DNA of 64,000 nt from Agelas oroides. Its lineage: Eukaryota > Porifera > Demospongiae > Agelasida > Agelasidae. The translations under genes were made by a program, and so were the position numbers. A model generated the notes under the pieces. The model searched no databases and was not told the DNA's origin. It saw nothing but the letters and a program-made list of their open reading frames with translations. The stretch spans positions 14,073,011 to 14,137,010 of the forward strand of contig OX422185.1 of the NCBI GenBank assembly GCA_949130485.1. Reading direction: 5' to 3'. Positions 2,908 to 64,000 of this stretch are shown here, in pieces (position 1 is the first letter of the stretch; each line of letters opens with the position of its first letter).

Positions 2908-2974
2908 CTGTGACATTCAAATATTGTACTATTTATTTGCTAGTGTATACATGTATGTTTGATGTTTTCAGATA

Positions 2975-4440
2975 ATTTATACGTGTACTGTGAAGTGGCA
3001 AAGCTGCAAGTAGCATGTTAGGAGAAAGGATTATAGGTGTACTGTGAAGTGGCAAAGCTGCAAGTAGCATGTTAGGAAGAAGGATTATACGTGTACTGTG
3101 AAGTGGCAAAGCTGCAAGTAGCATGTTAGGAGAAAGGATTATACGTGTACTGTGAAGTGGCAAAGCTGCAAGTAGCATGTTAGGAAGAAGGATTATACGT
3201 GTACTGTGAAGTGGCAAAGCTGCAAGTAGCATGTTAGGAAGGATTATACGTGTACTGTGAAGTGGCAAAGCTGCAAGTAGCATGTTAGGAGAAAGGATTA
3301 TACGTGTACTGTGAAGTGGCAAAGCTGCAAGTAGCATGTTAGGAAGAAGGATTATACGTGTACTGTGAAGTGGCAAAGCTGCAAGTAGCATGTTAGGAGA
3401 AAGGATTATACGTGTACTGTGAAGTGGCAAAGCTGCAAGTAACATGTTAGGAGAAAGGATTATACGTGTACTGTGAAGTGGCAAAGCTGCAAGTAGCATG
3501 TTAGGAAGAAGGATTATACGTGTACTGTGAAGTGGCAAAGCTGCAAGTAGCATGTTAGGAGAAAGGATTATACGTGTACTGTGAAGTGGCAAAGCTGCAA
3601 GTAGCATGTTAGGAAGAAGGATTATACGTGTACTGTGAAGTGGCAAAGCTGCAAGTAGCATGTTAGGAGAAAGGATTATACGTGTACTGTGAAGTGGCAA
3701 AGCTGCAAGTAGCATGTTAGGAAGAAGGATTATACGTGTACTGTGAAGTGGCAAAGCTGCAAGTAGCATGTTAGGAGAAAGGATTATACGTGTACTGTGA
3801 AGTGGCAAAGCTGCAAGTAGCATGTTAGGAAGAAGGATTATACGTGTACTGTGAAGTGGCAAAGCTGCAAGTAGCATGTTAGGAGAAAGGATTATACGTG
3901 TACTGTGAAGTGGCAAAGCTGCAAGTAGCATGTTAGGAAGAAGGATTATACGTGTACTGTGAAGTGGCAAAGCTGCAAGTAGCATGTTAGGAGAAAGGAT
4001 TATACGTGTACTGTGAAGTGGCACAGCTGCAAGTAGCATGTTAGGGGAAAGGATTATACGTGTACTGTGAAGTGGCAAAGCTGCAAGTAGCATGTTAGGG
4101 GAAAGGATTATACGTGTACTGTGAAGTGGCAAAGCTGCAAGTAACATGTTAGGAGAAAGGATTATACGTGTACTGTGAAGTGGCAAAGCTGCAAGTAGCA
4201 TGTTAGGAGAAAGGATTATACGTGTACTGTGAAGTGGCAAAGCTGCAAGTAGCATGTTAGGAGAAAGGATTATACGTGTACTGTGAAGTGGCAAAGCTGC
4301 AAGTAGCATGTTAGGAGAAAGGATTATACATGTACTGTGAAGTGGCAAAGCTGCAAGTAGCATGTTAGGAGAAAGGATTATATACGTGTACTGTGAAGTG
4401 GCAAAGCTGCAAGTAGCATGTTAGGAAGAAGGATTATACA
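2975..4440. repeat. 54-bp minisatellite, about 27 copies
   Basis: A 54-bp unit containing GTGTACTGTGAAGTGGCAAA repeats with very few substitutions. Two unit types differ at GGAGAAAGG versus GGAAGAAGG, and they alternate regularly across the middle of the array, which implies a 108-bp higher-order unit. One unit is 3 bp shorter. A minus-strand frame stays open through the array (4363 to 2933, an 18-residue repeat of the form MLLAALPLHSTRIILxPN). That follows automatically from a unit divisible by three and is not taken as a gene. Confidence 0.95.
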
Positions 4441-26259: not shown

Positions 26260-29222
26260 ATGACTGAATCCGACGCTCCCGCTGCTCACGTCCCAGGTGT
26301 TGAACGCCTTGCCCCCGTCCCCACCATGGCTGCCGTTAGCATCAAGTACTGCCCTTCTGGCCCGCCGATCCCAAAGTCTGCTTCACTCAGGTCGAGGCCC
26401 AGTTCACCACCAGGGGGGTGACAGCTCAGAAGACCCGCTTCGACTATGTGATCAGCTCCCTCAGTCCTGAGTTCGCCATGGAAGTCAGGGATCTTCTACT
26501 CAAGCCTCCAGCCGAGAGCCCCTATGATACACTCAAGGCCGACCTCATCAAACGTACTGCAGCCTCCGAACAATGTAAGCTGCAACATCTCATCAGTGGA
26601 GAAGAGCTCGGCGACCGCAAGCCAACACAGCTGCTCCTCCGATGCATGCAGCAACTCCTTGGGGACAAGCTTGGTACATCTGCCGATGCCAACTCCTTCC
26701 TTCGTGAACTGTTCCTGCAATGTCTCCCTCCCAACGTCCGGATGGTTCTCGCCTCCACTGATGCCTCCATGGACCTCAACGTCCGGATGGTTCTCGCCTC
26801 CACTGATGGCTCCATGGACCTCAACATCCGGATGGTTCTCGCCTCCACTGATGCCTCCATAGACCTCAACGTCCGGATGGTTCTCGCCTCCACTGATGGC
26901 TCCATGGACCTCAACGTCCGGATGGTTCTCACCTCCACTGATGGCTCCATAGACCTCAACATCGAGATGGTTCTCGCCTCCACCGGTGAACTGTTCCAGA
27001 TCGCTACCTTCTCCAAACTGGACCTCGTGTGTGCGTACCACCAAATTCCAGTTGCCCCCAAAGATGTCCCCAAGACCACCGTCACAACCCCATTTGGCCT
27101 GTTCGAGTTTGCGCGAATGCCTTTCGGCCTCAGGAATGCTGCACAGACATTCCAACAGTTTATGGACCAAGTTCTCCGTGCCACTCCAGAACAACACCTC
27201 CAGGACTTACGGACTGTTTTCGAAAGACTCCACAACCACAGCATTGTCATCAACCCCAACAAGTGTCTCTTCGGTGTCCGTGAACTTGATTTTCTCTGTC
27301 ATCACACTGACCAACATGGTATCATTCCTCTACCTGTGAAAGTTCAAGCCATTCGTGACTTTCCTCAACCCCAGTATCAGCGCCAGTTGCGCCAGTTTAT
27401 TGGACTTGTGAACTTTTATCATCGATTTCTCCCTCACTGTGCCGACCTGATGCAACCCCTCCATGCTCTTCTCACCGCTTCCAAGCCAAACTCTCAGACA
27501 CTCGCCTGGAATGATGCCGCCTTGGCCGCCTTCAAGGCCACAAAGGAAGCCCTAGTCAATGCCTCAACCTCTCATACCCCAAAGCTGATGACCCCATGTC
27601 TCATGACTGATACATCTAACACTGCTGTGGAGCAGTATGTCAACAGTATCTGGCGTCCCATCTCTTTTTTCTCCAGGAAGATGACGCCCACTGAGACCCG
27701 CTACAGCACTTTTGACAGGGAATTGCTGGCTGTGTATCTTGCGATCAAACACTTCCGCCATTTCCTTGAAGGCAGACACTTTCATGTCCTCACTGATCAC
27801 AAGCCACTCACATTTGCACTAAACAGCCACTCCAATCGTGACTCTCCTCGTCAAGGTCGTCAGCTGGACTACATATCTTAATTCACCTCCACCATCCGTC
27901 ACGTTCACAGAGTGGACAATGAAGTTGCTGATGCACTTTCCCGTATTGAGACTAACGCGCTACTCTCTGGCCAACCACCCACTGTGGACTTTGCTGCTAT
28001 GGCTAAGACACAGGCCACTGACCCACAGCTCTCCAGTCCTCCCCATCTTCTACACTGGTCGTGGAAGCTATCCCACTGGCTAACTCCGGCACCCCACTTT
28101 ACTGTGACATGTCCACAGGAACACAACGCCCCCTCGTCCCACTGGCATGGTGACGTACTGTGTTTGACTCCCTTCATGGTCTGTCTAATCCAGGAATCCG
28201 AGCAACCCAGAAGCTCATTATGGCTCGGTTTGTATGGCCTGGTATGAACGCAGATGTCCACCGCTGGACTCGTTCCTGTGTACAGTGCCAATGTGCCAAG
28301 ATTCGGTGACACTCTACCGCCCCACTCTCTTCCCAACCCCGAATGCTCGTTTTGATGTCATCCACATTAACTTCGTTGGACCATTTCCACCATCACGAGG
28401 ATTCACACATCCTGTGTTGACCATTTCACTAGGTGGCCGGAAGCCATCCCTCTCACTTGCATCACTGCAGAAGCTGTGGCTCAAGCCTTCCTCAGTGGCT
28501 GGATCTCTCGCTTTGGTGTCCCTTCCCACTATTGTCACTCTGATGACACTCCTCAGATCCAAGCGAGCTCGCACAACCGCCTACCACCCCAAACCAATGA
28601 ACGTTTCCACCACCAACTCAAGGCTACTCTGAAAGCACAACCCCAACCAGACTCATGGATGGATGTCCTACCATTTGTTCTCCTCGGAATCCGCACCACT
28701 CTCAAGGAGGACATATCAGCAACGGCTGCAGAGATGGTGTACAGCACAACTCTCCGTCTCCCTGGAGAATTCTTCACCCCCTCTCAAACATCTTCTCTGC
28801 CTGACCCATCCAACTATGTATCCAACCTCAGAACTCACATGCAGATTATCCGACCTCCTCCACCCCGTCCCACCCAGTGGAACAGCAACATCATTGATCT
28901 GCTACCCATGTTTTCATCCGGCATGATGCTGTCCGTAAACCTCTTCAACCACCATATGATGGACCATACCGCGTCATTAAAAGGACTGATAAACACTTTA
29001 CAATCGACATCAACGGTCGTAACAATATTGTCTCCATCGATCGCCTCAAACCTGCTCACCTCGATACCAACAACTTCCACCCCACCTCACAAACTGCGCC
29101 CCCAACCACTCAACCATGTCAAACCACTCACTCTGATCAACGTGTCCACTTCCCTCAGTATCTCTCCCAACACGTGTCGTAAGACACTAGGGGGGGAGTG
29201 GTGTAGTGAACTGAACTTTTGA
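26260..29222 (+). pseudogene. gag-pol relic, gypsy type
   Basis: The gag frame starts at 26260, shifts before 26418, and continues to 27881 as one fused frame. The gag region (26418 to about 26980) includes the segment ending [19 protein letters not shown]. It is joined directly to mid reverse transcriptase ([16 protein letters not shown], then [18 protein letters not shown]). The gag zinc knuckle, the protease and the first RT segment are missing, and the polymerase Y-x-D-D block is deleted between MDQVLRA and TPEQHL near 27180. RNase H residues are visible ([24 protein letters not shown]). After a stop at 27879 the rest lies in shifted frames: a degraded integrase zinc finger near 28200-28300 and a core at about 28350-28560, where the first catalytic Asp appears as Asn (HINFVGP). 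It cannot move on its own. Confidence 0.88.
26733..26986 (+). repeat. 45-bp in-frame tandem repeat in gag
   Basis: About 5.6 units of a 15-residue block ([15 protein letters not shown]) start at 26733, 26778, 26823, 26868, 26913 and 26958. The family normally has this block once, near the end of the gag capsid region. The array sits at the gag/RT deletion junction. Confidence 0.92.
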
Positions 29223-43900: not shown

Positions 43901-44040
43901 CAGATCTTTCATTTCTTTGAGGTAGCATAGTCAGTCAGTCTTGCACACATCTTTGGACCATGTATAGACGTCTGGGTCGTATCTGTACTATAGGTACGTG
44001 CACTAAGCATGCAGTGATTGAAGAAAGTGCTACAGTTCGA
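40980..44040. other. Long non-coding stretch
   Basis: No supported gene in about 3 kb. The frames near 41.1, 41.6 and 42.95 kb are under 95 codons, lack recognisable domains and are opposed by overlapping frames on the other strand. No strong inverted repeat was noticed. Confidence 0.3.
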
Positions 44041-44054
44041 CTCAAGGTGGGTTG

Positions 44055-44094
44055 GGGGGGGGGGGGGGGGTTGGTCCCTCTGGATCCGCCACTG
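44055..44094 (+). mobile_element. G-tract and right end of a hAT-like element
   Basis: A run of about 16 G is followed by TTGGTCCCTCTGGATCCGCC and ACTG. Read inward this gives CAGTGGCGGATCCAGAGGGA, a hAT-type terminus. The left end was not located. Confidence 0.5.
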
Positions 44095-45250
44095 ATGAGA
44101 ACAGCTATTTTCCATCTTCCATAGCTCAACATCAACACATGAAACCGGCTAGGAACAAGCTGCAGTGCATACAATTTGCAGAACTAGCTCACTTCCCTCA
44201 GCTCTGCTACCACTTAGCAATGTACACAATAAATCATGTAGATCACTGATGTAACCACTTCATAAGCACAAGGCATGTGCCCGTGTACCTCACACACATA
44301 AATTGGAGCTATATCACGCACAATCGTGTCACAACTAATACATGATTATACCACAGAAAGTTGTAAAATTAAGTTTCATACAATATAAACTACCTATTTT
44401 ACATTGTATACTAGCTTGTAGTTACGCTGATAACCGCAATAAACATTCACGTAGGAGAATGTAACACCAACACATGTTAGCCATGGGAGCTTACATTAAC
44501 CAACCCATGTCCTACTCTTGTCCTATGGGGCTCCATCCCTAGAATTGGGTGATGTAATATCTACTATATATGTATAGTTGTATGTGTAAGATTTATGGTT
44601 GCAATAATCATCACTTGTGCATTTGCATGAAACAAGATGTACCAATCAGATGTATGACACATGGTGCTAAGCTACGATTTTTCTTCCCATCACCATCATG
44701 GTAGCAGGTTTTTCTTTACTCATTGTTCAGACACTTGGAGGGCCTAGGAGCTCTCATTAGTCAGTTAACGAGGATAGAGACAATGGTTACTAAGTACAAT
44801 TAAACCTTTTTCACATATAGTAAGTCCCTGGATACTATGCTATTACTATTACTCACTTGGAGTTTTGAAACAACTTTATCTCACCACAGATATCACTTCT
44901 CCATCAGTGTGTAAAGACAAGAAAAGCAATATCATAGTAGAAGTTCAGCACTGCTAAACTTTGTGCTGGGATCACAGGAAGTTGGGCATCTGTTCCTCTC
45001 TGGGAAACTGGAATAGCAATCACAGGAGGCAAAGTTAGTTCACTATCTCTGTATCTAAAAATTCCAAAATTCTGTGATACTTCTGTTCGACACTTTCAGT
45101 CAAGTCCTAATCAATTACTTCCACTTAAATCTTGAAGGCAAGGAATCAAAATGCATACCATGGTGTAGTCAATCAAAGTTAGACTGTTGCCCTCAATCAG
45201 CTTCTGGCTAGAAAGAGATGGTCTAGTTCAGGAGGCTGATCATGATGCTG
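44095..45250. other. Intergenic stretch upstream of the NLR gene
   Basis: No supported gene. The promoter and any 5' untranslated exons of the NLR gene probably lie here or just downstream. No clear TATA box was assigned. Confidence 0.3.
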
Positions 45251-45252
45251 TT

Positions 45253-45489
45253 GTTGAAAGTCGTTATGCTACAATCACTCTAAAGTTAGTTCCTATGTCC
45301 CATGTTAGTGTGTGTGCATGGTCTGAGCCCAACTGACCTCGCAATACTGAATACCTTGACAGGAGAGTCACGACTGTGACCCTGACTGACACATGCAGTC
45401 TGTAACCTTTTGTGTGGTGCATACTGTAGTTTAGGAGGTTGAAAGTCTTGATGCTACAATCACTCTAAAGTTAGTGCCTATGTCCCATG
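45253..45489 (+). repeat. 52-bp direct duplication at the NLR start
   Basis: GTTGAAAGTCG/TT-ATGCTACAATCACTC and the following text to CCTATGTCCCATG occur at 45253-45304 and 45438-45489 (offset 185 bp). The second copy supplies the ATG used as the start of exon 1. Confidence 0.85.
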
Positions 45490-46261
45490 CAGTTGGTGCA
45501 AGAAGACATCATGATTTACAACCTTGATGTGTGCCACGCAGTTGTTGAGTGCACACCAGCACCAAAAGCAACCAAAGACATGAGGAAAAGGAAAATAGCA
45601 CATCGTAGATTTGAACAGTGGTGCAGACCAGGATGGGTTACACTGGCCTGTATGGCTGATCCTTTCATTGTGTGCATTGTAGCGGTGTTGATTACGATCA
45701 GCAATCTAAGAAATCAGCAGGAGTGGAGCAGGAACAAAGATGCTCACCCAATAACCAAGCAGTATGTCTACTGTGACATGCTCCACTGCAAAAAAGTTGA
45801 TGGAACCTGCACAAGGCATAAGCCCAGGATAGTTGCGTCAGTGGAACACTGCAATGCAAGAAATGTGTACACCTACCTTCACACCATTTTGTTCATCCTC
45901 TGTCACTGGCCAGTAGCAACAGCAGCAGTTATAGCTACGAGGCTGTTGCTGGCAGGGGACATTGAACTCAACCCTGGGCCGCTGACAACTAGTGATTTGA
46001 GGAATGTTCGTAAGTCTGTTTGGGATGCTCGTACGAAATGGTATGACATTGGCATTGAACTTGAGATTGACGTGTCAGTTTTGGATGCTATTAAACATGA
46101 TAATGATGATGCAGGTTCACGCCTAACTGCAATGCTGACTAACTGGCTTAAGCGAACAACTCCTTCACCAAACTGGGAAGCATTGGTTAATGCACTGAAA
46201 AGTCCGACAGTTGGATGTGAACGTCAGGCTGAGGATATAGAGAAGAAATATTGCGACAGAG
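45487..46261 (+). CDS. NLR exon 1: hydrophobic segments, 2A motif, Death domain 1
   Basis: Residues 50-74 (VTLACMADPFIVCIVAVLIT) and about 127-150 (YLHTILFILCHWPVATAAVI) are strongly hydrophobic and probably membrane-spanning. Between them is a Cys/His-bearing segment (about 93-125). Residues 152-165 are RLLLAGDIELNPGP, a canonical 2A sequence. Residues about 169-256 look like a Death domain: WYDIGIELEIDVSVLDAI, then LTAMLTNWLKRTTPSPNWEA, ending KKYC. The exon closes in phase 1 at a good donor (GAG|GTAAGC). The open frame continues 120 bp past the donor to a stop, so an unspliced product would also be short. Confidence 0.85.
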
Positions 46262-49200
46262 GTAAGCCAAATTATACCAGAGTCACCTTCTTTGTCATTT
46301 CTGGCAATACTTTGCTTCCAAGTAGCCTAGTGCCGAGATCCTGCCATCTAATAATAGTTGAGTCACCAATAGGAAAAAGTTGACAGAAATGGTCATCTTG
46401 TTTATAAGCCATGGGTAATGATAAAAAAAACATGTTATTCAAGTTAGCAAAATTGGTGATGAAACTTATTCAATAATATTAATGAACACATAAAAGGATG
46501 AACATTGCATCGTGTCCACAAGTGTAGCAGGTAGTAGTAAGTGATAAACTATGTGCATGTAAAACAGCATGTACATTAGCTCAAATAATCATGCATGTAA
46601 AAAAAAAAACTAGTCAAAGGTGTAGCCTGAGACTACAGTGCTCCAAGCAAAGAAAGTACATTAGAAAAAATTTACCTAAGCGGTTACAACCACTCTACAA
46701 TGTCCAAATATGTGAATACTTTTAATTGGTTTTTTCAAAACTTAAATTTTCCACATACAGGAATGGAGAAGCCCTAAAAGGGTGGGACCCAATTTTGGGC
46801 TAAACTAAAAGTTGACACAAAGGGCAATACTTCTGGAATGTCAAGGAGTTGAATTCTCGAATTTCAGACAAAAATATACTATATCACAATTCAACCTTTT
46901 ATAAAAAAAAAAACCCAGTCCTTAACTGCAAACTTTGTGGAAATGCTGTGCCGAGTGAAAACGTTTCTCAAAGGCTGCTGAAGTAAAGAGACAACAAGGG
47001 ATGCAAAATCTGATAAAATTACTACATTTGTGGAAGGTTAGAGCTCTTAGCTTCCAAGTTTAGTGAAATGCTGTGTCTAAAGCATTTTTTGAAGTCACTC
47101 TATAGCTGAAGCCATAGTAGTGCCTGCAAGTCATGTGACTCACAGTGCTCTCCTTTATTCTTAACCAGAAATGATTGGAGGACATTTCTATCAAATTTAT
47201 TTACGATCAAAGATAGTATAGGGTTGAATGTACTCTTTTTGCTTGGAGCACTGTATAATATCCACATCGCCTGAGGGCAAGGTACTTGTAGATATACATA
47301 CATCATTTTCCATATTTATTTAATTTGTTTCCAGCTGAGGCAACATACTGAACACTTGTAAGAAGCAACAAACCTGTGCCAGAATATGTATCTCAAAGAT
47401 TCATAGATACCTGTAGTAGTGAGGGAAACAACCTGGAGCTGGATACAAAACTTATTAAATTATAAGAGTCATGAAAGGAAAAACTGAGTGAGCATATTCA
47501 TCTGAAGTCATGTCTTACTAAACTAGTGATAATCTCTAAATTTTCTGCAGGAGTTCCCCCACACTCTGGTACATGGCAGTCAGGCAGTCAGTTTCCCAGG
47601 CAAGCCAGTAGCCTGTGTCCATCTCCTCAACAGCCGCATGGTAAATACCAAGCCATTCTTGCTCCATCCCAAGGTATTATTAGGTCATAAGGATTAAGCT
47701 CATATGTGGCTAACACCATGCAATCCTAGAGTGGCTAGAAAGATTGCCAGTCATGGTACATAATACTGTAATAGCTACCTCTAACTTGTGCATGTGAGTT
47801 GATGGAGAAACTTGTAGGAATCTGCAGTTGAAGTTTGCTATAAGTCACATATACCACTGCTGCACATATGAGAAATCCACATCAGTACTAAAAGTCATGC
47901 ATCCTCGATCTATTTGGTGAAGAAGGGAGGATTGTTCAATAAATCATTATCACAAAGAAAACATCACTCTTGTTTATTGTCTTGTTACTCATGCTACACA
48001 CACATAAAAGTACAGATGGAAACAGACTTGAATTTTGTGGTATAGTTTTCATCATGATATTCATCTCTTGTAACCCCAAAGCAACATGTGTTAACCGTAC
48101 TACAATAAGCAATTCTCCAGGATGGGAATGAGACAAGTTTGCCTCTTTTCTGATTATCACCTCTTCTTCAGGGATGCATGGCTTTCAGCAAGGTGTGCAA
48201 TTCCCACAACATGTGCATCAACATTCCGAAGCCCCAAGCATCCAGCCAGCTGGTCAGGTTGTAGGTCAGTTTGGTGGTCATTTAGGTGATACAGTCCAGC
48301 ACCAGTTGGCATACTCTCATAAAAAATATGGTGCACAGCATCCACCCCCTCAACAGCTATACTATGCCAATCCATGGCAACCACAGCCATACCAGAAACC
48401 AGTTACAGTTTACTGGAGAGAGCTAAAGTATATACATGTGTGTGGAAAAAAGTTTTTTGTTCTCACGATTACAGCTGATGTTAATCTATAGCAACTTAGT
48501 TTTAGAGTGTGGTGTAGATGTTTCATATGGTAGCTTTCTTTTCTGCAGGTGAACCAATACCAACTAAAAAACTTCTGATGAAAGAGCTATATTCCACTGT
48601 TGCCAGCAAATGGCACCCCATAGGCACTTTCCTAGAAATCCCTGATGGAGAATTGAATACAATTGCTGAACGTGACCAGGGTGATCCTCAGAAGTGCTTG
48701 ATGGCTATGCTGGGTGTATGGCTGCATCGAACCGACCCACCAGCTAGCTGGTCTGATATTGCTGATGCAGTGGAAGTTATTGGAATGTCTGACATTGCAC
48801 AACAGATTAGGCGGAAATACTGTAAGCTTTGTGTGGCAAGCCCACTTGTTAAATCTACAGGAATAACCGGCAAATCTTTTCAAGAGCAGCACTGCATAGT
48901 ACTAGAAGCAGAGTTTCCTTTAGTTAGCGCAGTTATACCTTATCATACTGCACTTATGTAGACATCGTGGGTCATTAAGTTGACATATCTTTGTGAAATT
49001 GTATGGGATAGAGTATTTGAAATGGGGTATGTTGTTTAAACTTATGGGACTAAAAAAAAGGGGGTGTATTAATGATTAATGAATTAATGAATAGAGTCAC
49101 CACTTTGAAGTGTTATGTCAGCATATATTTTTGATTTGTTCTTCAGGCATGCATGGCTTTCAGCAAGGTGCACAACTTCCACAATGTGTGCCATCACAGT

Positions 49201-52200
49201 ATACACCAGCTCCAAGCTCACAGGCTGCTGGTAACATGGCAGGTTAGACTGGTCACTTTTGTGAAACATTTCTTGTGTGATTTTTTTATAGCAGTACTAA
49301 TGACAAAGTATTTGTGGCATGAGGTGTGATGTACATCCAACCTTGTTCTGCATGAAGTGAGTGGAAGATACACATGTAGAGAATTGACTTTTGCAAAAGT
49401 ACATTTTCAATGTGATGGCTACCAGGACATTAATATTTCGCACCCACATTTTGTTTTTTAACTTGCTGTCAATTTATGCTTTATTTTTACAGATGACGCA
49501 CATTTTAGTCACAGTATGTCAGAAAGCAGGGATACATTTAAAGCAAACACTAAAACAGAGTCAATGGATGTCCTCAGCAGTTGTCCTTCATTCCAGAAAC
49601 TAAGTTCCAGTGAGAAAGAGGAACTCAAGGCCATGCTGGATGATGATGAGGAAAAAATGAAATTGCATTTTGGTCGCATGGTCACAAAAACATGTGACTC
49701 TGTTGAAAAGCAAACCACAGTGGTAAAGTTTGCTGGAAGTATTTTAGCACTGGGGGCATATGACCCAGCTCCTGAAGTACAAGATCGATCACTTCTTCAT
49801 GAGCACCGGGAAGAAATTAAAGGTGCTAAAACAATTTCAGATATCTTTATTATCCTGAGTGCCTACTGGAACTATCTCAACTATGAGATTTTAAAGTATA
49901 TCATAGAACTCTATGCCACAAGTGAGGTTATTGAGAGGCTGGAGGATTATAATGAAAAGCTTCACGATTTCTGTAAACGTCGAATTTTTGAACTCCCTGA
50001 GAGTAGCAGTGAGACTGGCAATGTACAAAATGAAAAGCAAGCAAAGTTTGTCATGAAACTTGATGTTCAAGAAAACGTTACATGTAAAGAGGTTCTTCAG
50101 ATCAGACGCAGAATTGCTAAGATACTTCGTATCAACGTGGCTGCATTAATCATTAGCCAGATGGACATAGGATGTGTTCAACTAACCTTTCTGATTCCCA
50201 AATTTGTAGTGCAAGAGGTATTTCCTCTTTCCAGTGAACAGATATCAGCACTCTCCAAGGATGCGTTCATCATTTCACTAGAGTGTGGGAGCTATAGTTG
50301 TAAGGTAAGGCAAAATCATTATAGATTCACCTCTGTAGTCACATGTTAAGGCTAGCACAGTAGCACTTGACAAATATCAACACTGCTAAGGGAACTATTC
50401 AAACTCAGATTATCTTCTCGGTTCTTTACAGAACACAAGCAAGGCTTATACAGAGGATGTTGCCACAGAAAGCCTTGAGTCATTGGAGCTAGAAGAACTG
50501 AAAGAAAAAAATCAACCACCTGTACATCACTTAGTGAAAGCCCAAGCAAAGCATCCAGGTCAGTATACTCACTTTTGGTTGTCATAAAAGAAATACATGA
50601 TATCTCAGTGTGTCTTCAGACACATCCTCTATTTCAAATCCATTTTCCAGTGGATTTCTGATCCTTTTTCCAGTCTGCTTTTCTGTTTGTTCTGAGTTAT
50701 GTCATGTCCCATATACAGATACCAAACTGTAAATGTATATGGATGTAATGAGTGTGTGACATATAACAGTGCTAATGGAACTGTGCACAATAGCATGCAA
50801 CAGTACAGGGGTCTGGGGCATACTCCCAAGGAAACTTTCCTGCCCTGAGATCACTTCTGTGGCCCTTCTGGGCAAATTGTCACCGACATCCAACAAATGC
50901 AGTCAGTATTAGCAAAGCCAGTATGTCAAAACACAAAGTGCCAGCCCTGATAGATCACTTTGCATGAAGCCTTGTGCTTTAAATTGCTTGTGCACGGGAA
51001 AAATGGTCAGGCCAATGCCTAGGTCACCTGGAATCCTGCCAGTTTATCAAAAACCACTGTGTTTTGCAACAGCATATTTGACATCATGTTACTAGGTCAT
51101 GGTGACACAAATAACATGCCAACATGTGCCTCCTCTTGTTTGCCTAGTACTCTTTTCATCACCCCTATTATTTTCTCTAGCTCATGACATTCTTCGGGTC
51201 ACTATCACCTGTAGTTTGCCCATGGCAGCACTTCCATTCATTGTAGGGAGGGTTTGTTACAAGTTTGTTTCCTTCTTAGGTCGGATGCATGCAATGCTCT
51301 CACGTTTTTCACCTTAAGCTGTAGTGCTTTGATCTCTCAACATTTTCACTACTCGAGTCATGATCTGTACTGTATAGCTCCCACCACATGTTCAAGTATG
51401 ATGCCCAGCTTTCTGTCATTCTATCACTGAGCAGCGCTCTAGGGAATAGAAGAAATTCCTTAAGAGCATCTCCAAACATTTCAACTGTTCATTCATGTAA
51501 CTAAAGCAACAAACCTCCGGTCACAACAATATTTCTCTTCTTGGAGTGAATACTATTCTTTAAATTTTGCTGGCATATTGCCGCAGGCCTAACTATTGCA
51601 CAGGCTATATCACAGTTGTGGAATGTTAGTTCACAGTCACAATTTCCCTTCTGATTTACACTATACATATCGAAACATTACAACCATCCAACTAGCATCA
51701 GCTGAGATCCATCTTGCATGATGTTATCTGGTTTGCTAGGTTACTACGACCATAATGTAGTAACTTAACCTTATCACAGTGAGGACACTTCTATATTTTG
51801 GTTGAAATGCCTGAAGTATTCTCTGGCCAAAAACCACAATATAAAAATGGCATCAATGTAGCTTGTGTTTGTAGCGCTCTGTGCCCGTTTAGGTATTAAT
51901 AGCTACCACTATGTAGCTGCAAAGCTATAGTCACTGGATGTTGGAGCTCCACTGTGCTAGCTTGTGCTACTGTTTTCCCTGTGCCATTGGTTTTAAATGT
52001 GTGGGATGCTTCAACTTAATGTGTGCACATGCACACTGCATGCTTAATGTTAACAATCTGGGCAGGCTATCATAAGCCAATCTGTTGTGATCACTAGGAA
52101 GTAAGCATTGCTGAAAAGGATACTGCAGAGCATACGTATGCCACCATAAATACAAGGTCTGTTTGATGCGCTTATTTAGAGGAAAGTGCTATAGTACATG

Positions 52201-55200
52201 GCTGATCTTCACTTGATTATAAGTAGGAAGCCTTTTCTTAGAGTTGGATTGTCCATTCCTACTTTTGTGTGATTAAACTGCTCTCAAGGCTGCCTGCAGG
52301 GTCGTTGACCTTGTCAAATGTTGCATTTCTTCATTTCTTCACTTCCTCATTTCTCATCTCCTCATTTCCCGTTCGTTCTTTTACGCCAACCCAGCTTTGC
52401 CATGCTTCAACATCCATAGCCCTAACCCTGTATTGTACATAGTTTTCTTGCTGTTGCTCCATGCAGATGATGACAGTGCTGAAAGGCAGAGAAGTGACAT
52501 TGCTGATACTGATGCAAGTGAGTTACTGTCCTGAAGATGGTAGGTTATAGAAGAATGGTGAATTTAAACAACTCATCACAGCTCAAGATGACATTGATTG
52601 GATCCATAGCAAGGGGAGACATGAGGCCCAGACTATTCAAGTGTCGTCTTCATTTTCTATCTAGCAAGCTAAAATATGTCATGAGAACAAATGTTTAATT
52701 ACAGCTAGGTAAACAAACATGGGCCACCTCTTTCTTGCATGCGTGCTTGCTATATAAACAAACATGGGCATGGTTTCATGGATGCAGAAGTGCTTGAAAT
52801 TTAAGCCCACCCTCTTCTTTGGTAAACAAGTAGGATGCTCCATTCATGGGCACTTATTCATCAAAATAAGGTACCTGCAGTATATGTTGCTGAAATTATA
52901 GTTTATATAGTTTTTAAGGCCTAAGGCATGTGTCACCTGTTGGAAATGGGAAATCTTGCTAACTTCTTTTATTCCTGTAGTACACACTTTGCTGTCTTCA
53001 TGACTTTGCATATAATTGGCAGTTTATAGTAGTGCTCACGCTCTCTTTCAGGAAGCCTGGGAAGATAACATACATAAGCCTTTACACTGTAAATGATTTC
53101 AGTATCCACTCTTTTTGTGTACATGCTTTCCCTTTTGAATGGTTGTTTGAAGTAAATAGAAGAATTGGCACCCATCTGTTAAGTGTAAATGATACCTGTT
53201 CAAATCTTGATACTACCAAAGGTGCTTGCTTGCCCTGACTGTATCGCATGAATAAATTTGCATAATGGTATTTAAAGGGCATTTTACATAAATTTCATCT
53301 CACATACATTCCTGCACCTACGGTATACGACTACGCAGATGCTTCATCGTCATGGTGTGAGCCTGACAGGCTGGTAGCCTACCTACTTGTCAGAAATTAA
53401 ACACAACTTTGAAAGTGTGAGGAAAAATAAAGTGAAGTGGAAAAAGCCTGCAGACTAGACATCACTCCAAGATCCAAGATATAGCACTTGAATTGAGATG
53501 AATGTTCACAACAGGCAATGTCAATGTACTCTACTCTGCATGCAGTCCAGATGCAAACACCATCATGGTGCATTCAACTTGTTCTAGCTGCCTCAAGTAA
53601 CAAAATGTGCATGGAGTAGCTTGGGTTCACCAAAGCTTATGCAGTGACAACACTACTGCTATAAAAGCTATACAGGCACAGTTTGGTCACTGTGACAAGC
53701 TGTGCAATTAGCAGTGTGGTTCACAGTGTGAGGGAAACACAGCTCAGTGTTAGTTTCATCATCAATGATTGTCTTTATCTACCTAGCTGGACAGAGTTTT
53801 GCTGGTGTCCCTGATGCCTCAGAGCTTAACTCAACTCCACGAGGTACGTATGAATGTTATGAATGAATTGACTTCTTAAAACAGCTGGGTAGGTCATGAG
53901 AGGCAGGGAATGGGAAATGGAATGCATGGGAACAGTAAGACAAGAAAGGGATTTGGTATTGCATGCTTTATGATTGCGTGTGAGCTGAATATAGTGGAAT
54001 GATTTTCCATTTTTGAGAAAATGTTCATTTTAAATTCCTGAGATCCAAGTAGTAGTAAAGATTCACTCCTTGTGCAAAGTTGGACACCAGTGTCATGGGA
54101 GCATGGCTGTGTGTTTTGTCTCATTGTAAGTGATTTTTTCTTCTTCTCTAGCTGGACAAAGTGCTGCTGATGCCACTGATGACTCAGAAGCCAGTTCCAC
54201 TCCACTAGGTATTTAGAAGCTAAAGCTAAAGTGAAAGGCTTTTTTAAAGTCTGTAACATGGTATATACAAGACATTCTAGAAAGCACTATGGGTAATTTA
54301 AATGAGTAGAATGTGAGGGAAAAGGGGAAAGGCTTACCCTCAAAAGACATGTACTAGTGAGTGTCTGTGGTAGTGACCCAACCAATATGAGTGCAGCATT
54401 CACTTCATTTTGTGTTATGCATGAGCGACATACTTCCCAAGACAGCTGTGTTCTGCTCAGGATGTATTTGGGTACAGTAGGAAGATAAATCTCATACAAA
54501 ATACAGGATAGAGGAGAGCATTAAAGCCACTATCACAGCAACAGTACAGGATGACAAGATGAACACTAGTGTACATAAATTAAACAACAGTCATACAGAG
54601 AGCAAGTTGGAGTAAGGCAAATACTGAGCCTCGTACCCAGGCTCTCGGTGGGTAGGGAAAAGGAGAGCCTGGTATCCACTGTTTATGAATGTGCTTAATT
54701 TCCCAGAAATCTTGGGTAATCGAGAACTATCATGTTATATTTGTACAACCGTGATGTCATAACATATACTTACCAATACGCCAATCCCACATTTTGCACA
54801 CGGGAGTTTTTCGACTGTTGTCCTGCACCCCCCAGCACCCTCCAATGGGTAGGTATTTCCAAAATATGAGTCTCAAGACAGTACAGGTAGTTTCCATTTT
54901 GGATGTTTGCTGGGGGAAATATGTGTTTATATTGCTACTGTCTGGTAAGTATGTGTGCTACAAAGTGTTATGGTTTGTTATGGACTGTAAGTTAGCAAGA
55001 ACTGATAGCAAATCAGGGCGGTGTAGCACTAAGCACTTTGGCTCCTTTGCTGCACTGTATCATACTCTAATAAAATGTACATCACACTATCGATCATGTG
55101 GAGGCATTCTCAGAACGATTAAGGTGGCCTTAACTTTATTATTAGTAACACGGAAGTACGCGAGGTTATTACAACAGTTTATGGAAACTGAATGGCTGCC

Positions 55201-61200: not shown

Positions 61201-64000
61201 TTGACATGGGATTCAGTTCATGGTGAAGATGTGTCCAACTGCACCCACAGTGTGAAATTTGATAGTCGTGACATTATTTAGTAAGATTAAATTGGGAAAA
61301 CAAATCACTAATCCACCAAATTCCTTGCCACTCTCTACGGTCATCATTCTTCCCCAAGCAGTCTACACGCAGACCTCAGCCTTCTCATATAGTTTATTCT
61401 ACCTCCAAAATCAGATTAATAATTACAAGCAGACAACTAAAAGTACAGTTTGTGTAAACACAACAGGATACAATACAGCTGCATTTCAGTTTTGTGGCGA
61501 CATGTCTGCGAAATTCCCGGGAAAATCCTGGCACATTATTGAACAGTTTTACGATTTTGCTCAGCCATAACTTGCTTTGTGCTGCTAGTAGCACTTAGTT
61601 ATACGAATAGCGTGCAATCAAAGTGGTAAACAACATGTACAGAAATTTATGGAGCTTTTCGACGTTCCGCCCCTATTTGTACAAATAATTGAAAATCGCT
61701 CACCGCTGACAGCAGTCTCGAGGGTACTCGCAAAAGCGCTCGTATCTTGGACAGTATAATAGGTATGAAAATTGGACCTTTTGTAAGCTATATTAAATGG
61801 CTAGGAGAGCTAGGCAGCGTTGGCTGCGTGTTCATAGCGTGTTCTGTACCATTTGTACGTTTGATCCCGCGAGGCCATTTTTTCCAAAATGGTACTCTTC
61901 ATATTTCCCGTGGAATTTCTTCTAGCTCGAGGATGTTATACTGCTGATTGTAATGTACTCACGCTGCGACGATCGTCTTGTAGCTCCACTTTGCCCCTAT
62001 TTGTACAACAAACCAAAGATGGCCCATATCTGAACCTGAATCTTGCGAGCAAGCGCTACCTCTACCACCATACGAAGCACCCAGCAGAAATAAAAGCACC
62101 ATGAACTTACAATAGACAGATCTCTCAACACACAGCGTATGTATCGTCTCGAATAAGCTTGCTAACTGGGAGATGCAGTGTTTGAAAGTTCACTGTGCGT
62201 TGAGCTTATTACTTATTCATACCAGGTTTGATGACGTCATGCGGTCACGTGGGTGGAATAAATTTCGAGGTCTGCGTGTAGACTGCAAGTGTAAAAATGA
62301 CAGTCTTACTGTGCCACAATGCAAGGATGTTTGTACACTGTGTACTGGAAAATACTCTGTTGTCAAGTGTTAGCACAAGTACAACAGGCACAAGTGCTAA
62401 TACAACCAACAGACTTGTCATATTTCCAGCTCAGAATTATACACTTACCATGTTTGTGTACATGTAAGATGTAGTACAGATGAGTGATGTTCCAGTAAAC
62501 AGTAACTGTGTATACGTAAAACTATTTATGTACAAACACTGTCAAGCAATAATGAGAGCAATAATGTTGAGCCTCCATAATCATATTCACAGTACAAAAT
62601 CCTCATGTATATTATGTGTTTATCATGTAAGATCACAACAATATAATAACAGTGTAGAGTCCCATAAAAACTATGTAGACATAGTACAGAGGGTGAACTA
62701 TCACCCTTGTATGCGAGTAATCCTTCACACACGTGATAAGTCCATATTGTACTGACTTTAGTACATGATGTGTGTATAAGAAACCATGTGTCTCTTTTTG
62801 CAGGGAGGTACTCAGAAAGGCTGAAATCCCGCTACACATCCAAACCCAAATACTCGCAAAACCAGTGGCCTCCTCAAGGGGCCAAAACGTTTTTTAACTT
62901 AGCCTTGATCAAGGAAGAGACTGTACGAAAGGGAGAGATATCAGATGAATTTACAAGACTGACTATAACCGGAAAGTTAGACGACATTTTACAAATCAAA
63001 AAGCCAATTAAACTACATGAAATTTTCAATGAAACTGACGACCGTCAAAAGATGACAGTCCTTCTTGAAGGACCCCCCGGGGGGGGGAAAACAGTTTTAA
63101 CACTTCACCTCTGTTTGGAGTGGGTAAAGGGAAAGTTATTTGAAGACTACAAACTTGTTATTCTAGTACGACTGAGAGAGCCAGCCATTCACAAGGCAAA
63201 AGAGATCAAAGACATACTACCACTTGTCGAGATGGAAGATGTTGAAATGCAAGATGTAGCAAAAGAGATAGTAAGTAACCGTGGAAGTGGGGTCCTTTTC
63301 ATAATGGATGGCTGGGATGAACTACCCAAAGACATTGAAGAAAATCACATCATTCGCCAAATCATTGTCAGAGAAGTATTATCTGAGGGTGCTGTTGTCA
63401 TAACATCTCGACCGACTTCATCAGCAACTCTTCATAGGCATTTAAAAGTATCATCACACATCGAAATATTAGGGTTTACCCCTTCAGAACTTCATGAATA
63501 TTTTACTGAACATTTAGACGGCAACAGCAAAGCAGCTAAAGCAGATAAAGCAGACAAACTTATGCTAAAGATCAGAGCAAATCCCACTGTGGCAGGAACC
63601 TGTACCCTACCACTGAATGCTGCTATTCTTGTACACATATTCGATTGTGATGGAGATCTACCAACTACAGAACACGGCATCTTTGAGTCTCTGATTCGAA
63701 ATTGCATTCATCGTCACCTAAAAGAGCGAGAACCCCAGCATGAAGTAAAAGCCATAAAGTCCTTGTATAAGCCCACTCCAAAAGTGCAAGATCAATACAA
63801 TGAACTCTGTAAGGTAGCTTATGAAGGTGTGATGGACGATCGTGTCATCTTTGAACTTTCTGAGCACTTCAATACCCTTGGTCTGCTTCAAGGAGTGGAG
63901 TGCTACACTTCATATGGAACTGAATACTTTTATAATTTCCTTCATCTGTCCATCCAGGAGTTTTTGGCTGCACAATACATTGCAACGTTTGAAGCAGCTA
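45487..64000 (+). CDS. NLR receptor gene (2A, Death, Death, NACHT), 3' end beyond the window
   Basis: I assemble eleven exons: 45487-46261, 47551-47640, 48172-48264, 48549-48821, 49147-49242, 49493-50304, 50432-50558, 52467-52517, 53787-53843, 54152-54208 and 62804 onward. All introns are GT-AG. The reading frame carries through every junction, giving about 810 residues before the NACHT exon and about 400 more to the window edge. NLRs are cytosolic pattern-sensing NTPases that oligomerise through NACHT and signal through Death-fold domains; sponge NLRs with N-terminal Death or CARD domains are known. The leucine-rich repeats expected after NACHT would lie beyond 64000. The first ATG after an in-frame stop (45472-45474) was taken as start. 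Upstream exons remain possible, because CATGCAG at 45486-45492 could also act as a splice acceptor. Confidence 0.85.
45940..45981 (+). other. 2A ribosome-skipping motif
   Basis: The encoded RLLLAGDIELNPGP has every position of the D-x-E-x-N-P-G-P consensus plus the usual hydrophobic helix upstream. In known 2A peptides the ribosome fails to link Gly to Pro, giving two proteins. Here the break would fall between Gly164 and Pro165, just before Death domain 1. 2A-like sequences are known at the N-termini of some invertebrate NLR-type proteins and of non-LTR retrotransposon ORFs. Activity is inferred, not shown. Confidence 0.85.
47551..47640 (+). CDS. NLR exon 2: Pro/Ser-rich linker
   Basis: Acceptor TTTTCTGCAG and donor CATG|GTAAAT bound exactly 30 codons, phase 1 at both ends. 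The product is Pro/Ser/Gln-rich (HSGTWQSGSQFPRQASSL) and likely disordered. It separates Death domain 1 from the next linker. Confidence 0.7.
48172..48264 (+). CDS. NLR exon 3: Gln/His-rich linker
   Basis: Acceptor CTTCTTCAG and donor GTAG|GTCAGT give 31 codons in phase 1-1. The start MHGFQQGVQFPQ is nearly the same as exon 5, so the two are paralogous. The frame stays open past the donor to 48488 with Gln/Pro/Tyr-rich, coding-like text (QHPPPQQLYYANPWQPQPYQ), so a longer exon or retained intron is possible. Confidence 0.6.
   Translation, partial: GCMAFSKVCNSHNMCINIPKPQASSQLVRL
48549..48821 (+). CDS. NLR exon 4: Death domain 2
   Basis: Acceptor TTTTCTGCAG and donor TACT|GTAAGC bound 91 codons, phase 1-1. 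The whole exon is one Death-fold domain: LYSTVASKWHPIGTFLEI, then LNTIAERDQGDPQKCLMAML, then a final helix IAQQIRRKYC. It is the same length and has the same landmarks as Death domain 1 (W, LG/LE, NW/SW, KYC) but is well diverged, so the duplication is old. Confidence 0.85.
49147..49242 (+). CDS. NLR exon 5: linker, paralogue of exon 3
   Basis: Acceptor TTCTTCAG and donor GCAG|GTTAGA give 32 codons, phase 1-1. It begins MHGFQQGAQLPQ and continues with Pro/Ser/Ala-rich text. The split codon with exon 4 makes cysteine, so the join reads KYC-MHG. Confidence 0.7.
49493..50304 (+). CDS. NLR exon 6: conserved helical plus alpha/beta region
   Basis: The exon encodes about 271 residues and ends in phase 0 at AAG|GTAAGG. 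After an acidic linker (SSSEKEELKAMLDDDEEKMK) comes a helix-rich block with ISDIFIILSAYWNYLNYEIL, then EDYNEKLHDFCKRRIFELP. A second block starts KFVMKLDVQENVTCKEVLQI and continues through CVQLTFLIPKFVVQEVFPL to IISLECGSYSCK. I recognise both blocks as recurring in invertebrate Death-domain and NLR-like proteins but cannot give a family name. It is too regular to be a spacer and may be a sensor or regulatory module. Confidence 0.8.
50432..50558 (+). CDS. NLR exon 7: charged linker
   Basis: It is 127 bp, phase 0 to 1, between CTTTACAG and CCAG|GTCAGT. The product is Glu/Leu/Lys-rich (ESLESLELEELKEKNQPP), probably a short helix or disordered tether. Confidence 0.7.
52467..52517 (+). CDS. NLR exon 8: acidic micro-exon
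   Basis: This is a 51-bp exon (17 codons) between CCATGCAG and GCAA|GTGAGT, phase 1-1, encoding an Asp/Ser-rich linker (DSAERQRSDIADTDA). Confidence 0.6.
53787..53843 (+). CDS. NLR exon 9: 57-bp linker exon
   Basis: Acceptor CTACCTAG and donor CGAG|GTACGT give 19 codons, phase 1-1. The product GQSFAGVPDASELNSTP is paralogous to exon 10. Confidence 0.65.
54152..54208 (+). CDS. NLR exon 10: 57-bp linker exon, paralogue of exon 9
   Basis: Acceptor TTCTCTAG and donor CTAG|GTATTT give 19 codons, phase 1-1. GQSAADATDDSEASSTP aligns with exon 9 at identical length, which indicates tandem exon duplication. The next coding exon is 8.6 kb downstream. Confidence 0.65.
   Translation: MDKVLLMPLMTQKPVPLH
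54627..54675. mobile_element. Hairpin-family fragment
   Basis: AGCCTCGTACCCAGGCTCTC faces a partial right arm GAGAGCCTGG, with the tip of the right end lost. A solo right arm of the same family lies at 56521-56544 (AGAGCCAGGGTACGAGGCTA). Confidence 0.6.
55304..55506 (+). CDS. Possible alternative terminal exon of the NLR gene
   Basis: After the acceptor AAATTTCAG, the phase-1 frame expected from exon 10 stays open for 67 codons and ends at TAA. It passes through KSFRATMTDRLWQFMRNTHQ and GGVEVVITSWHLCC. Splicing here would give a Death-Death protein without NACHT. No domain is recognised and no clear polyadenylation signal was located, so chance remains possible. Confidence 0.25.
55896..56316. 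mobile_element. MITE in the large NLR intron (~420 bp)
   Basis: Left end AACACTTGAAGGGGGGCCAC and right end, read inward, AACACTGCAGGGGCCACTCC are gapped inverted repeats. The 113-codon frame inside has no recognisable domain. Confidence 0.65.
56742..57304. mobile_element. TA-flanked MITE (563 bp)
   Basis: Left end TACCGTATACATGGGTTAAT and right end, read inward, TACCATATACACAGGTTAAT continue into AAGCGCA. Both arms repeat TTAATAAGCGCAT-like words internally. The end motif groups it with the other TACCRTA elements (13909, 39151). Confidence 0.85.
57851..58437. mobile_element. TTAA-flanked MITE, third family (587 bp)
   Basis: TTAA at 57847-57850 and 58438-58441 brackets perfect inverted ends CTCTTTACCGACC. 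The ends resemble CCCTWTAMCCC of the 15301 family in layout, but the interior differs. Confidence 0.88.
58754..58822. mobile_element. Hairpin-family copy, degraded
   Basis: TAGCCCCATACCCAGACCAG faces GGATGAGTATGAGGCTA. The stem is poorly conserved in the middle. No target duplication was found. Confidence 0.5.
58910..59704. mobile_element. Inverted-repeat element with internal or flanking TTAA (~770-795 bp)
   Basis: GGCCTGGCTCAA at 58925 and its complement ending at 59689 are flanked by TTAA on both sides. However, the inverted match continues outward through TTAA to CTCAGGYATATTAAGG, so the true end may be at about 58910 and 59704. Both readings are kept. Confidence 0.7.
59705..62803. other. 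3' part of the large NLR intron
   Basis: No supported exon was found. A duplicated word CGCCCCTATTTGTACAA / TGCCCCTATTTGTACAA occurs at 61667 and 61995. Short frames here lack domains. The region ends in a pyrimidine tract and acceptor (CTCTTTTTGCAG) before the NACHT exon. Confidence 0.5.
62804..64000 (+). CDS. NLR exon 11: NACHT NTPase, partial
   Basis: The phase-1 frame from exon 10 runs open to the window edge. After a lead-in (GAKTFFNLALIKEETVRKGE) come Walker A GPPGGGKT (63070-63093), Walker B FIMDGWDEL (63298-63324) and the sensor-1-like VVITSRPTSS (63394-63423). The conserved post-NACHT motif FLHLSIQEFLAA begins at 63937. All nucleotide-handling residues visible are intact, so ATP binding and hydrolysis are plausible. 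This is the signal-relay and oligomerisation module of the receptor. The winged-helix part continues past the window and LRRs are expected beyond. Confidence 0.93.

Follow-up and report, generated by a model that had tools for sequence, protein, structure and literature searches.

The window, by which is meant the whole 64,000-nucleotide stretch of the Agelas oroides genome analysed here, contains an exon in which a putative membrane peptide, a 2A (StopGo) motif and a Death domain are read in a single open frame (Table 1). This open frame spans positions 45475-46383 and translates as RLLLAGDIELNPGP followed by LTTSDLRNV..., and the codons of the D-x-E-x-N-P-G-P consensus lie within it with a Death domain directly after them, in agreement with the first-pass annotation, which had claimed an in-frame 2A consensus inside a Death-domain exon. 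The claimed order of exon 1, with two hydrophobic segments leading to the 2A and then to the Death domain, is also borne out, in the case of the segments by Kyte-Doolittle scores, the one measure applied to them, and in the case of the Death domain by Pfam. The same is true of the proposed end of the exon at 46261, directly 3' of which stands a donor, gtaagc. Counted from the ATG at 45487, the first 164 residues end in ...RLLLAGDIELNPG, after which come the Pro and the Death domain.

Table 1. Coordinates of the predicted gene and associated features (window numbering unless a contig is given)
Feature	Position	Strand	Basis or remark
Exon 1: membrane module, 2A and Death domain 1, single open frame	45511..46261	+	ATG 45511 preferred, 45487 possible
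Upstream peptide, 156 residues, last residue Gly of NPG	45511..45978	+	paralogue alignment, spliced model
Hydrophobic segment 1 (LACMADPFIVCIVAVLITI)	45643..45699	+	Kyte-Doolittle mean 2.5 over 19; basic N-terminus precedes
Hydrophobic segment 2, runs into RLLLAG	45883..45957	+	Kyte-Doolittle mean 1.8 over best 19
2A core DIELNPGP	45958..45981	+	predicted skipped bond: Gly 45976-45978 / Pro 45979-45981
Death domain 1	46033..46203	+	Pfam PF00531, E 8.3e-06 on exon 1; residues 183-239 from 45487 ATG
Exon 2, linker	47551..47640	+	splice sites and phase only
Exon 3, linker	48172..48264	+	splice sites and phase only
Exon 4, Death domain 2	48549..48821	+	PF00531, E 7.5e-08 on its open frame
Exon 5, linker	49147..49242	+	start repeats start of exon 3 (53 bases, 87%)
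Exon 6, unnamed X domain	49493..50304	+	no Pfam or PDB sequence match at E 1
Exon 7	50432..50558	+	splice sites and phase only
Exon 8, NACHT at 63055-63516	62804..64000	+	continues beyond window; in-frame stop ends at 64419
Extra 2A sites upstream of L015, L011 and L013	G000 C3:14326515, 16777957, 10115734		

A spliced model carries the frame of exon 1 through eight exons to a protein of 1285 residues, of which 156 precede the Gly-Pro bond of the motif and 1129 follow it. All introns of the model are predicted from splice sites and phase alone, including the last, a 12.2-kb intron before exon 8 whose two ends match in phase. In the 1129-residue part, Pfam finds two Death stretches (PF00531, E 3.6e-14 for the protein) and, provided that exon 8 joins exon 7, a NACHT domain (PF05729, E 9.7e-22). 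By this model, and with the last intron predicted, the earlier description of a spliced immune gene of the NLR class is supported, since two Death domains and a NACHT fall into one frame after splicing, in the order Death-Death-X-NACHT. What follows the 2A in the model is thus Death, X and NACHT, and not an endonuclease or reverse transcriptase. A search of the 6 kb that follow the window found no leucine-rich repeat (LRR) at E 0.1; exon 8 has an LRR-like end by eye only. The X domain, of about 230 residues, gives at least 142 scored genomic matches (E 1e-5) and lies between Death and NACHT, LRR or ankyrin parts. A relative of it at locus L076 gives a weak, non-significant match to TRADD-like_N (E 0.19).

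Paralogues of the first exon

The exon-1 protein has seven full-length matches including the window itself, all on one contig: a copy at 99%, which sits in a duplicate of window positions 43978-52540 with 97.3% DNA identity, and five relatives at 58-63% identity. Alignment of these paralogues alters two details of the first-pass annotation. The ATG at 45511 is kept in six of the seven and that at 45487 in four, locus L015 having neither; because the former is commoner, an upstream peptide of 156 residues is likelier than the 164 originally claimed. The Cys/His loop proposed for that peptide is rejected as a conserved set, one Cys and one His being invariant in the seven-row alignment. The upstream peptide has no Pfam match at E 1 and its best match among PDB sequences (E 0.1) is not convincing; no match to the membrane module was found in phage records, nor to exon 1 in viral contigs searched with six short peptide patterns. 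A 52-base direct repeat (45253-45304 and 45438-45489, 94%) ends at the first ATG, and its DNA is conserved among the paralogues, perhaps as promoter or 5' UTR. Three of the paralogues have a second 2A site, of another sequence type, some 6-9 kb upstream on their own strand (Table 1).

The motif D(I/V)ExNPGP is kept in all seven paralogues, and in the 14 codons around it the amino acids hold while the codons turn over. For this stretch dN/dS is 0.05-0.19 where computable, many pairs being saturated at synonymous sites, and 0 for the pair L012/L014; the values are 0.33-0.57 for the upstream part and 0.38-0.69 for the Death part when three near-identical pairs, in which the ratio scatters (0.17-0.87 upstream), are left out. 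Synonymous divergence in the 2A stretch of the diverged pairs (pS 0.58-0.86, from few sites) is above that of the flanks, mostly 0.3-0.5. With L010 and L014 dropped as near copies, six of the eight octapeptide columns are invariant across the remaining five rows, a level equalled by 7 of 148 eight-column windows upstream; the 2A motif is among the best-kept parts, and not the sole one.

Predicted membrane modules across the genome

A DNA pattern for the 2A has 287 matches in the 259-Mb genome, whereas its reversed form has 2 and a scrambled form (DxExPNGP) has 0, and on these counts a chance origin of the motif is rejected. Reading the open frames around the other matches revealed, in addition to the window type (A), three kinds of module: B, beginning MPIST..., C, beginning MGIDLATWRARI..., and D, beginning MPPNGP.EWRARIGH..., with a stretch common to C and D. 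Retention of the 2A was scored by searching with a single module of each of the kinds B, C and D, cut before the 2A to avoid circularity. The B query gave 65 matches, of which 63 reach the module end and 62 of these have an intact 2A within 60 bases, always in frame; for C, 73 of 83 matches reach the end and 69 retain the 2A, 68 of them in frame by spacing; for D, all 34 end-reaching modules (38 matches) retain it. Together, an intact 2A follows 165 of 170 end-reaching modules and is absent after five, the 16 matches that stop short of the module end being left out. With the seven A sites included, modules A to D account for 172 of the 287 motifs.

All modules of 30 classed by script (7 A, 15 B, 6 C and 2 D, others having escaped the patterns) have two hydrophobic segments and a net positive N-terminus. 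The Kyte-Doolittle mean over 19 residues is 1.76-2.66 for segment 1 and 1.28-3.21 for segment 2, which runs into the 2A, and A-D modules are 119-170 residues long with an internal first segment after the basic N-terminus. At loci classed by eye as B-type (n=22), an acceptor-like AG stands directly before the ATG in 17 and a donor four bases past the Pro codon in 18, while at the A loci and four B loci the Death domain continues in the same open frame. The module thus looks like a portable exon cassette.

The same genome also holds 2A sequences borne by LINEs. At L062 and L066 (both on C2), the two PHD-type loci on which Pfam was run, a PHD finger, just under cut-off in L066, and an endonuclease were identified, and in both the 2A lies near the ORF start in an L-rich context, as in the window gene; the LINE frames continue to the PHD finger and endonuclease, whereas the window gene continues to a Death domain. 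By eye, a PHD-finger-like stretch follows the 2A frame at a further set of loci (L050, L052, L054-L059, L061, L064, L067 and L068). Such elements make it conceivable that the receptor modules are functionless retrotransposon debris, LINE 5' ORFs with their 2A that happened to land before receptor genes. This is highly improbable and is rejected here: among ten PHD-type modules the first hydrophobic segment is at residue 1 in six, unlike in the 30 A-D modules, and the other four start too late or are not hydrophobic there, whereas the receptor modules are constrained, in frame (B and C) and non-randomly placed.

The placement of the modules was assessed against the best-scored domain matches in the genome (148 Death, 142 X and 105 NACHT), several of the Death alignments taking in the 2A itself. 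Among these matches, Death lies within 5 kb downstream, on the strand of the site, at 97 of the 287 sites; upstream on that strand the count is 8, and on the opposite strand it is 0. The corresponding counts are 84, 1 and 1 for X and 7, 0 and 0 for NACHT. In 200 circular shifts of the sites, for which several contig extents were approximated, the means were 0.9, 0.9 and 0.4 and the maxima 9, 9 and 4 for Death, X and NACHT, respectively. A best-scored match to any of the three lies no more than 5 kb downstream of 116 of the 172 A-D sites; within 5 kb, the proportion is 109 of 131 for B and C, 0 of 34 for D (3 of 34 within 25 kb) and 19 of 115 for the remaining sites. For the seven window-type genes, a best-scored NACHT match lies within 25 kb on the same strand in four, the nearest at 4.0 kb, and in none of the other three. 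In one D gene an X-like exon was recognised some 6.6 kb further along (BLASTP E 3e-09 in a single comparison), and the Death-like exon before it has no Pfam match.

By adjacency, the gene bodies near modules include NACHT (the window), LRR (L042) and ankyrin repeats (L043, where the Death match is just under the Pfam cut-off). At L042 (C1:27000-30600), downstream of a module B site, an X domain is followed by LRR without a Pfam NACHT match, and this is perhaps a receptor that lost its NACHT. Module D loci L074, L076 and L077 are clustered at 6.5-10.2 Mb of C8, and in L074 and L076 the module is followed downstream by a frame with repeats of the ERDARLQ type.

Probable skipping at the membrane module and comparison with known systems

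The reading of exon 1 that we consider probable is that of a two-segment membrane module ending in a working StopGo, which would free a Death-Death-X-NACHT receptor. Segment 1 would leave the ribosome early and take it to the ER, such that, with the Gly of NPG in the P site, some 93-111 residues would separate that Gly from segment 1, and segment 2 would not yet have left the tunnel. At this point the 156-residue peptide would be released and translation would continue from Pro, giving a separate cytosolic receptor whose first residues border its Death domain. Where skipping failed, the chain would stay joined, with its N-terminus in, its loop out and segment 2 leading back, and the tethered receptor would face the cytosol. 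A single mRNA could in this way supply three products: the receptor in free form, its membrane peptide partner and a share of receptor that remains tethered. The equal amounts of peptide and receptor proposed in the first-pass annotation are not supported.

Several observations count for a working 2A. These include the retention of the motif in 165 of 170 modules and in all seven A-type paralogues, along with the turnover of codons around it. The hexapeptide RLLLAG before the Asp of the 2A resembles the L-rich StopGo class, which ends in (A/S/C)G, an assignment made by eye against section 10 of PMC12846837 and not by a scored model; this context favours skipping, because a motif 6 representative of the L-rich class is reported there to have been active in vitro. 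Counting against skipping is the residue preceding NPGP in the window exon, which is Leu, because the L-rich viral contexts described in the same source favour Ser. There is also precedent for skipping in a receptor of this class, as an N-terminal 2A of a sea-urchin NLR is given as about 80% active in vitro (PMC4981915). In a yeast construct with an ER-targeted part before a 2A, PMC2978324 describes the upstream part going to the ER and the downstream part remaining in the cytosol.

The charge pattern bears on the topology of an unskipped chain. All 15 B modules have a higher net charge at the N-terminus than in the loop, a pattern suggestive of an N-terminus inside for this kind only; seven of the eight C and D modules carry the more positive charge in the loop, which does not favour that topology, and module A is mixed, the N-terminus being higher in three of seven and equal in one. 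In the alternative given by the first-pass annotation, the upstream part may act as a targeting signal when skipping fails; with two segments, an anchor facing the cytosol is a more natural expectation for it than a signal for secretion, with the charge pattern settling the matter for B only.

This leaves room for a different division of labour, in which partial skipping partitions the receptor between cytosol and secretory pathway, as in the sea urchin, and the module is mainly a signal sequence and not a partner peptide. Strongylocentrotus purpuratus offers the same position, receptor class and logic (PMC4981915), and the topology of modules A, C and D is left unsettled by charge. We nonetheless regard such dual targeting as unlikely, if worth keeping in mind, given that the modules here span 119-170 residues and have their first segment inside the chain, behind a basic N-terminus, where the sea urchin has a 26-residue N-terminal signal, and that the upstream part is itself constrained. 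A module that is an ordinary anchor, with a 2A inactive or too weak to matter, would agree with accounts of sponge receptors, as NLRs with transmembrane segments in D. avara, and likewise in A. queenslandica as cited by the same paper, are read as putative membrane-bound NLRs (PMC12909245). An anchor alone is not expected to keep the 2A intact in nearly every module or to show synonymous turnover inside the motif, and we consider this explanation improbable.

The yeast results underlie both the preferred reading of release by skipping and a variant of it. According to PMC2978324, contact with the translocon 28-48 residues upstream can block a 2A and raise the amount of fusion in cells, although not in vitro; in the window module those positions correspond to the loop end and the start of segment 2, so that an ER-docked ribosome would give the joined, tethered receptor. 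By analogy, the module might be a switch set by membrane insertion, with disturbed ER targeting or translation, for instance in infection, yielding free receptor. This proposal is doubtful. If it were true, up to about 170 genes would read the state of ER targeting or translation via one shared recoding device.

Among known systems the nearest is that of S. purpuratus, in which 2A-like sequences are reported for 85 of 241 NLRs and recoding and targeting were measured for one NLR 2A (Roulston et al. 2016, PMC4981915). As in those NLRs, the motif is N-terminal on a Death-NACHT-type receptor, with a hydrophobic stretch just upstream, and the receptor is predicted to be in the cytosol after skipping. 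Unlike the 26-residue single signal of the SpNLR2A type, the window 2A ends 156 (or 164) residues in, the modules come in four kinds with two segments each, and they lie ahead of NACHT, LRR or ankyrin genes, either as exons of their own or in fused ones. The viral StopGo of the L-rich class in PMC12846837 shares the D(V/I)ExNPGP core and an L-rich hexapeptide ending in (A/S)G, but it belongs to viral polyproteins whereas the genes here are host genes; according to that paper cellular coding sequences very rarely contain StopGo, and its main text, searched by term, mentions neither NLR nor sponge. N-terminal hydrophobic segments, three to five in number, are present in anthozoan NLRs (PMC5094078), and transmembrane domains are part of the sponge NLR architectures of PMC12909245; in both of these accounts such proteins are read as membrane-bound receptors, in contrast to the skipping reading preferred here, and the main text of the latter mentions neither NPGP nor skipping. 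Among the open-access papers listed by the literature searches, none dealt with 2A in sponge NLRs. The N-terminal NLR 2A is known from the sea urchin; new are the cassette with two segments, the number of its copies and its occurrence ahead of NACHT, LRR and ankyrin genes.

With 172 copies in one animal genome, most of them near Death-type receptor exons, the cassette would be a standing part of the innate immune repertoire. If it is active, the product would be misrepresented in gene models where such an NLR appears as one membrane-bound protein. The modules also form a natural collection of host-encoded 2A sequences preceded by hydrophobic leaders, in which the interplay of skipping and ER targeting can be studied.

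Two further elements were observed elsewhere in the window. Positions 2933-4420 of the minus strand contain a long tandem repeat, which can be read as an open frame of repetitive sequence, and frames at 26340-29222 resemble, by eye, the pol of a gypsy-type retrotransposon.
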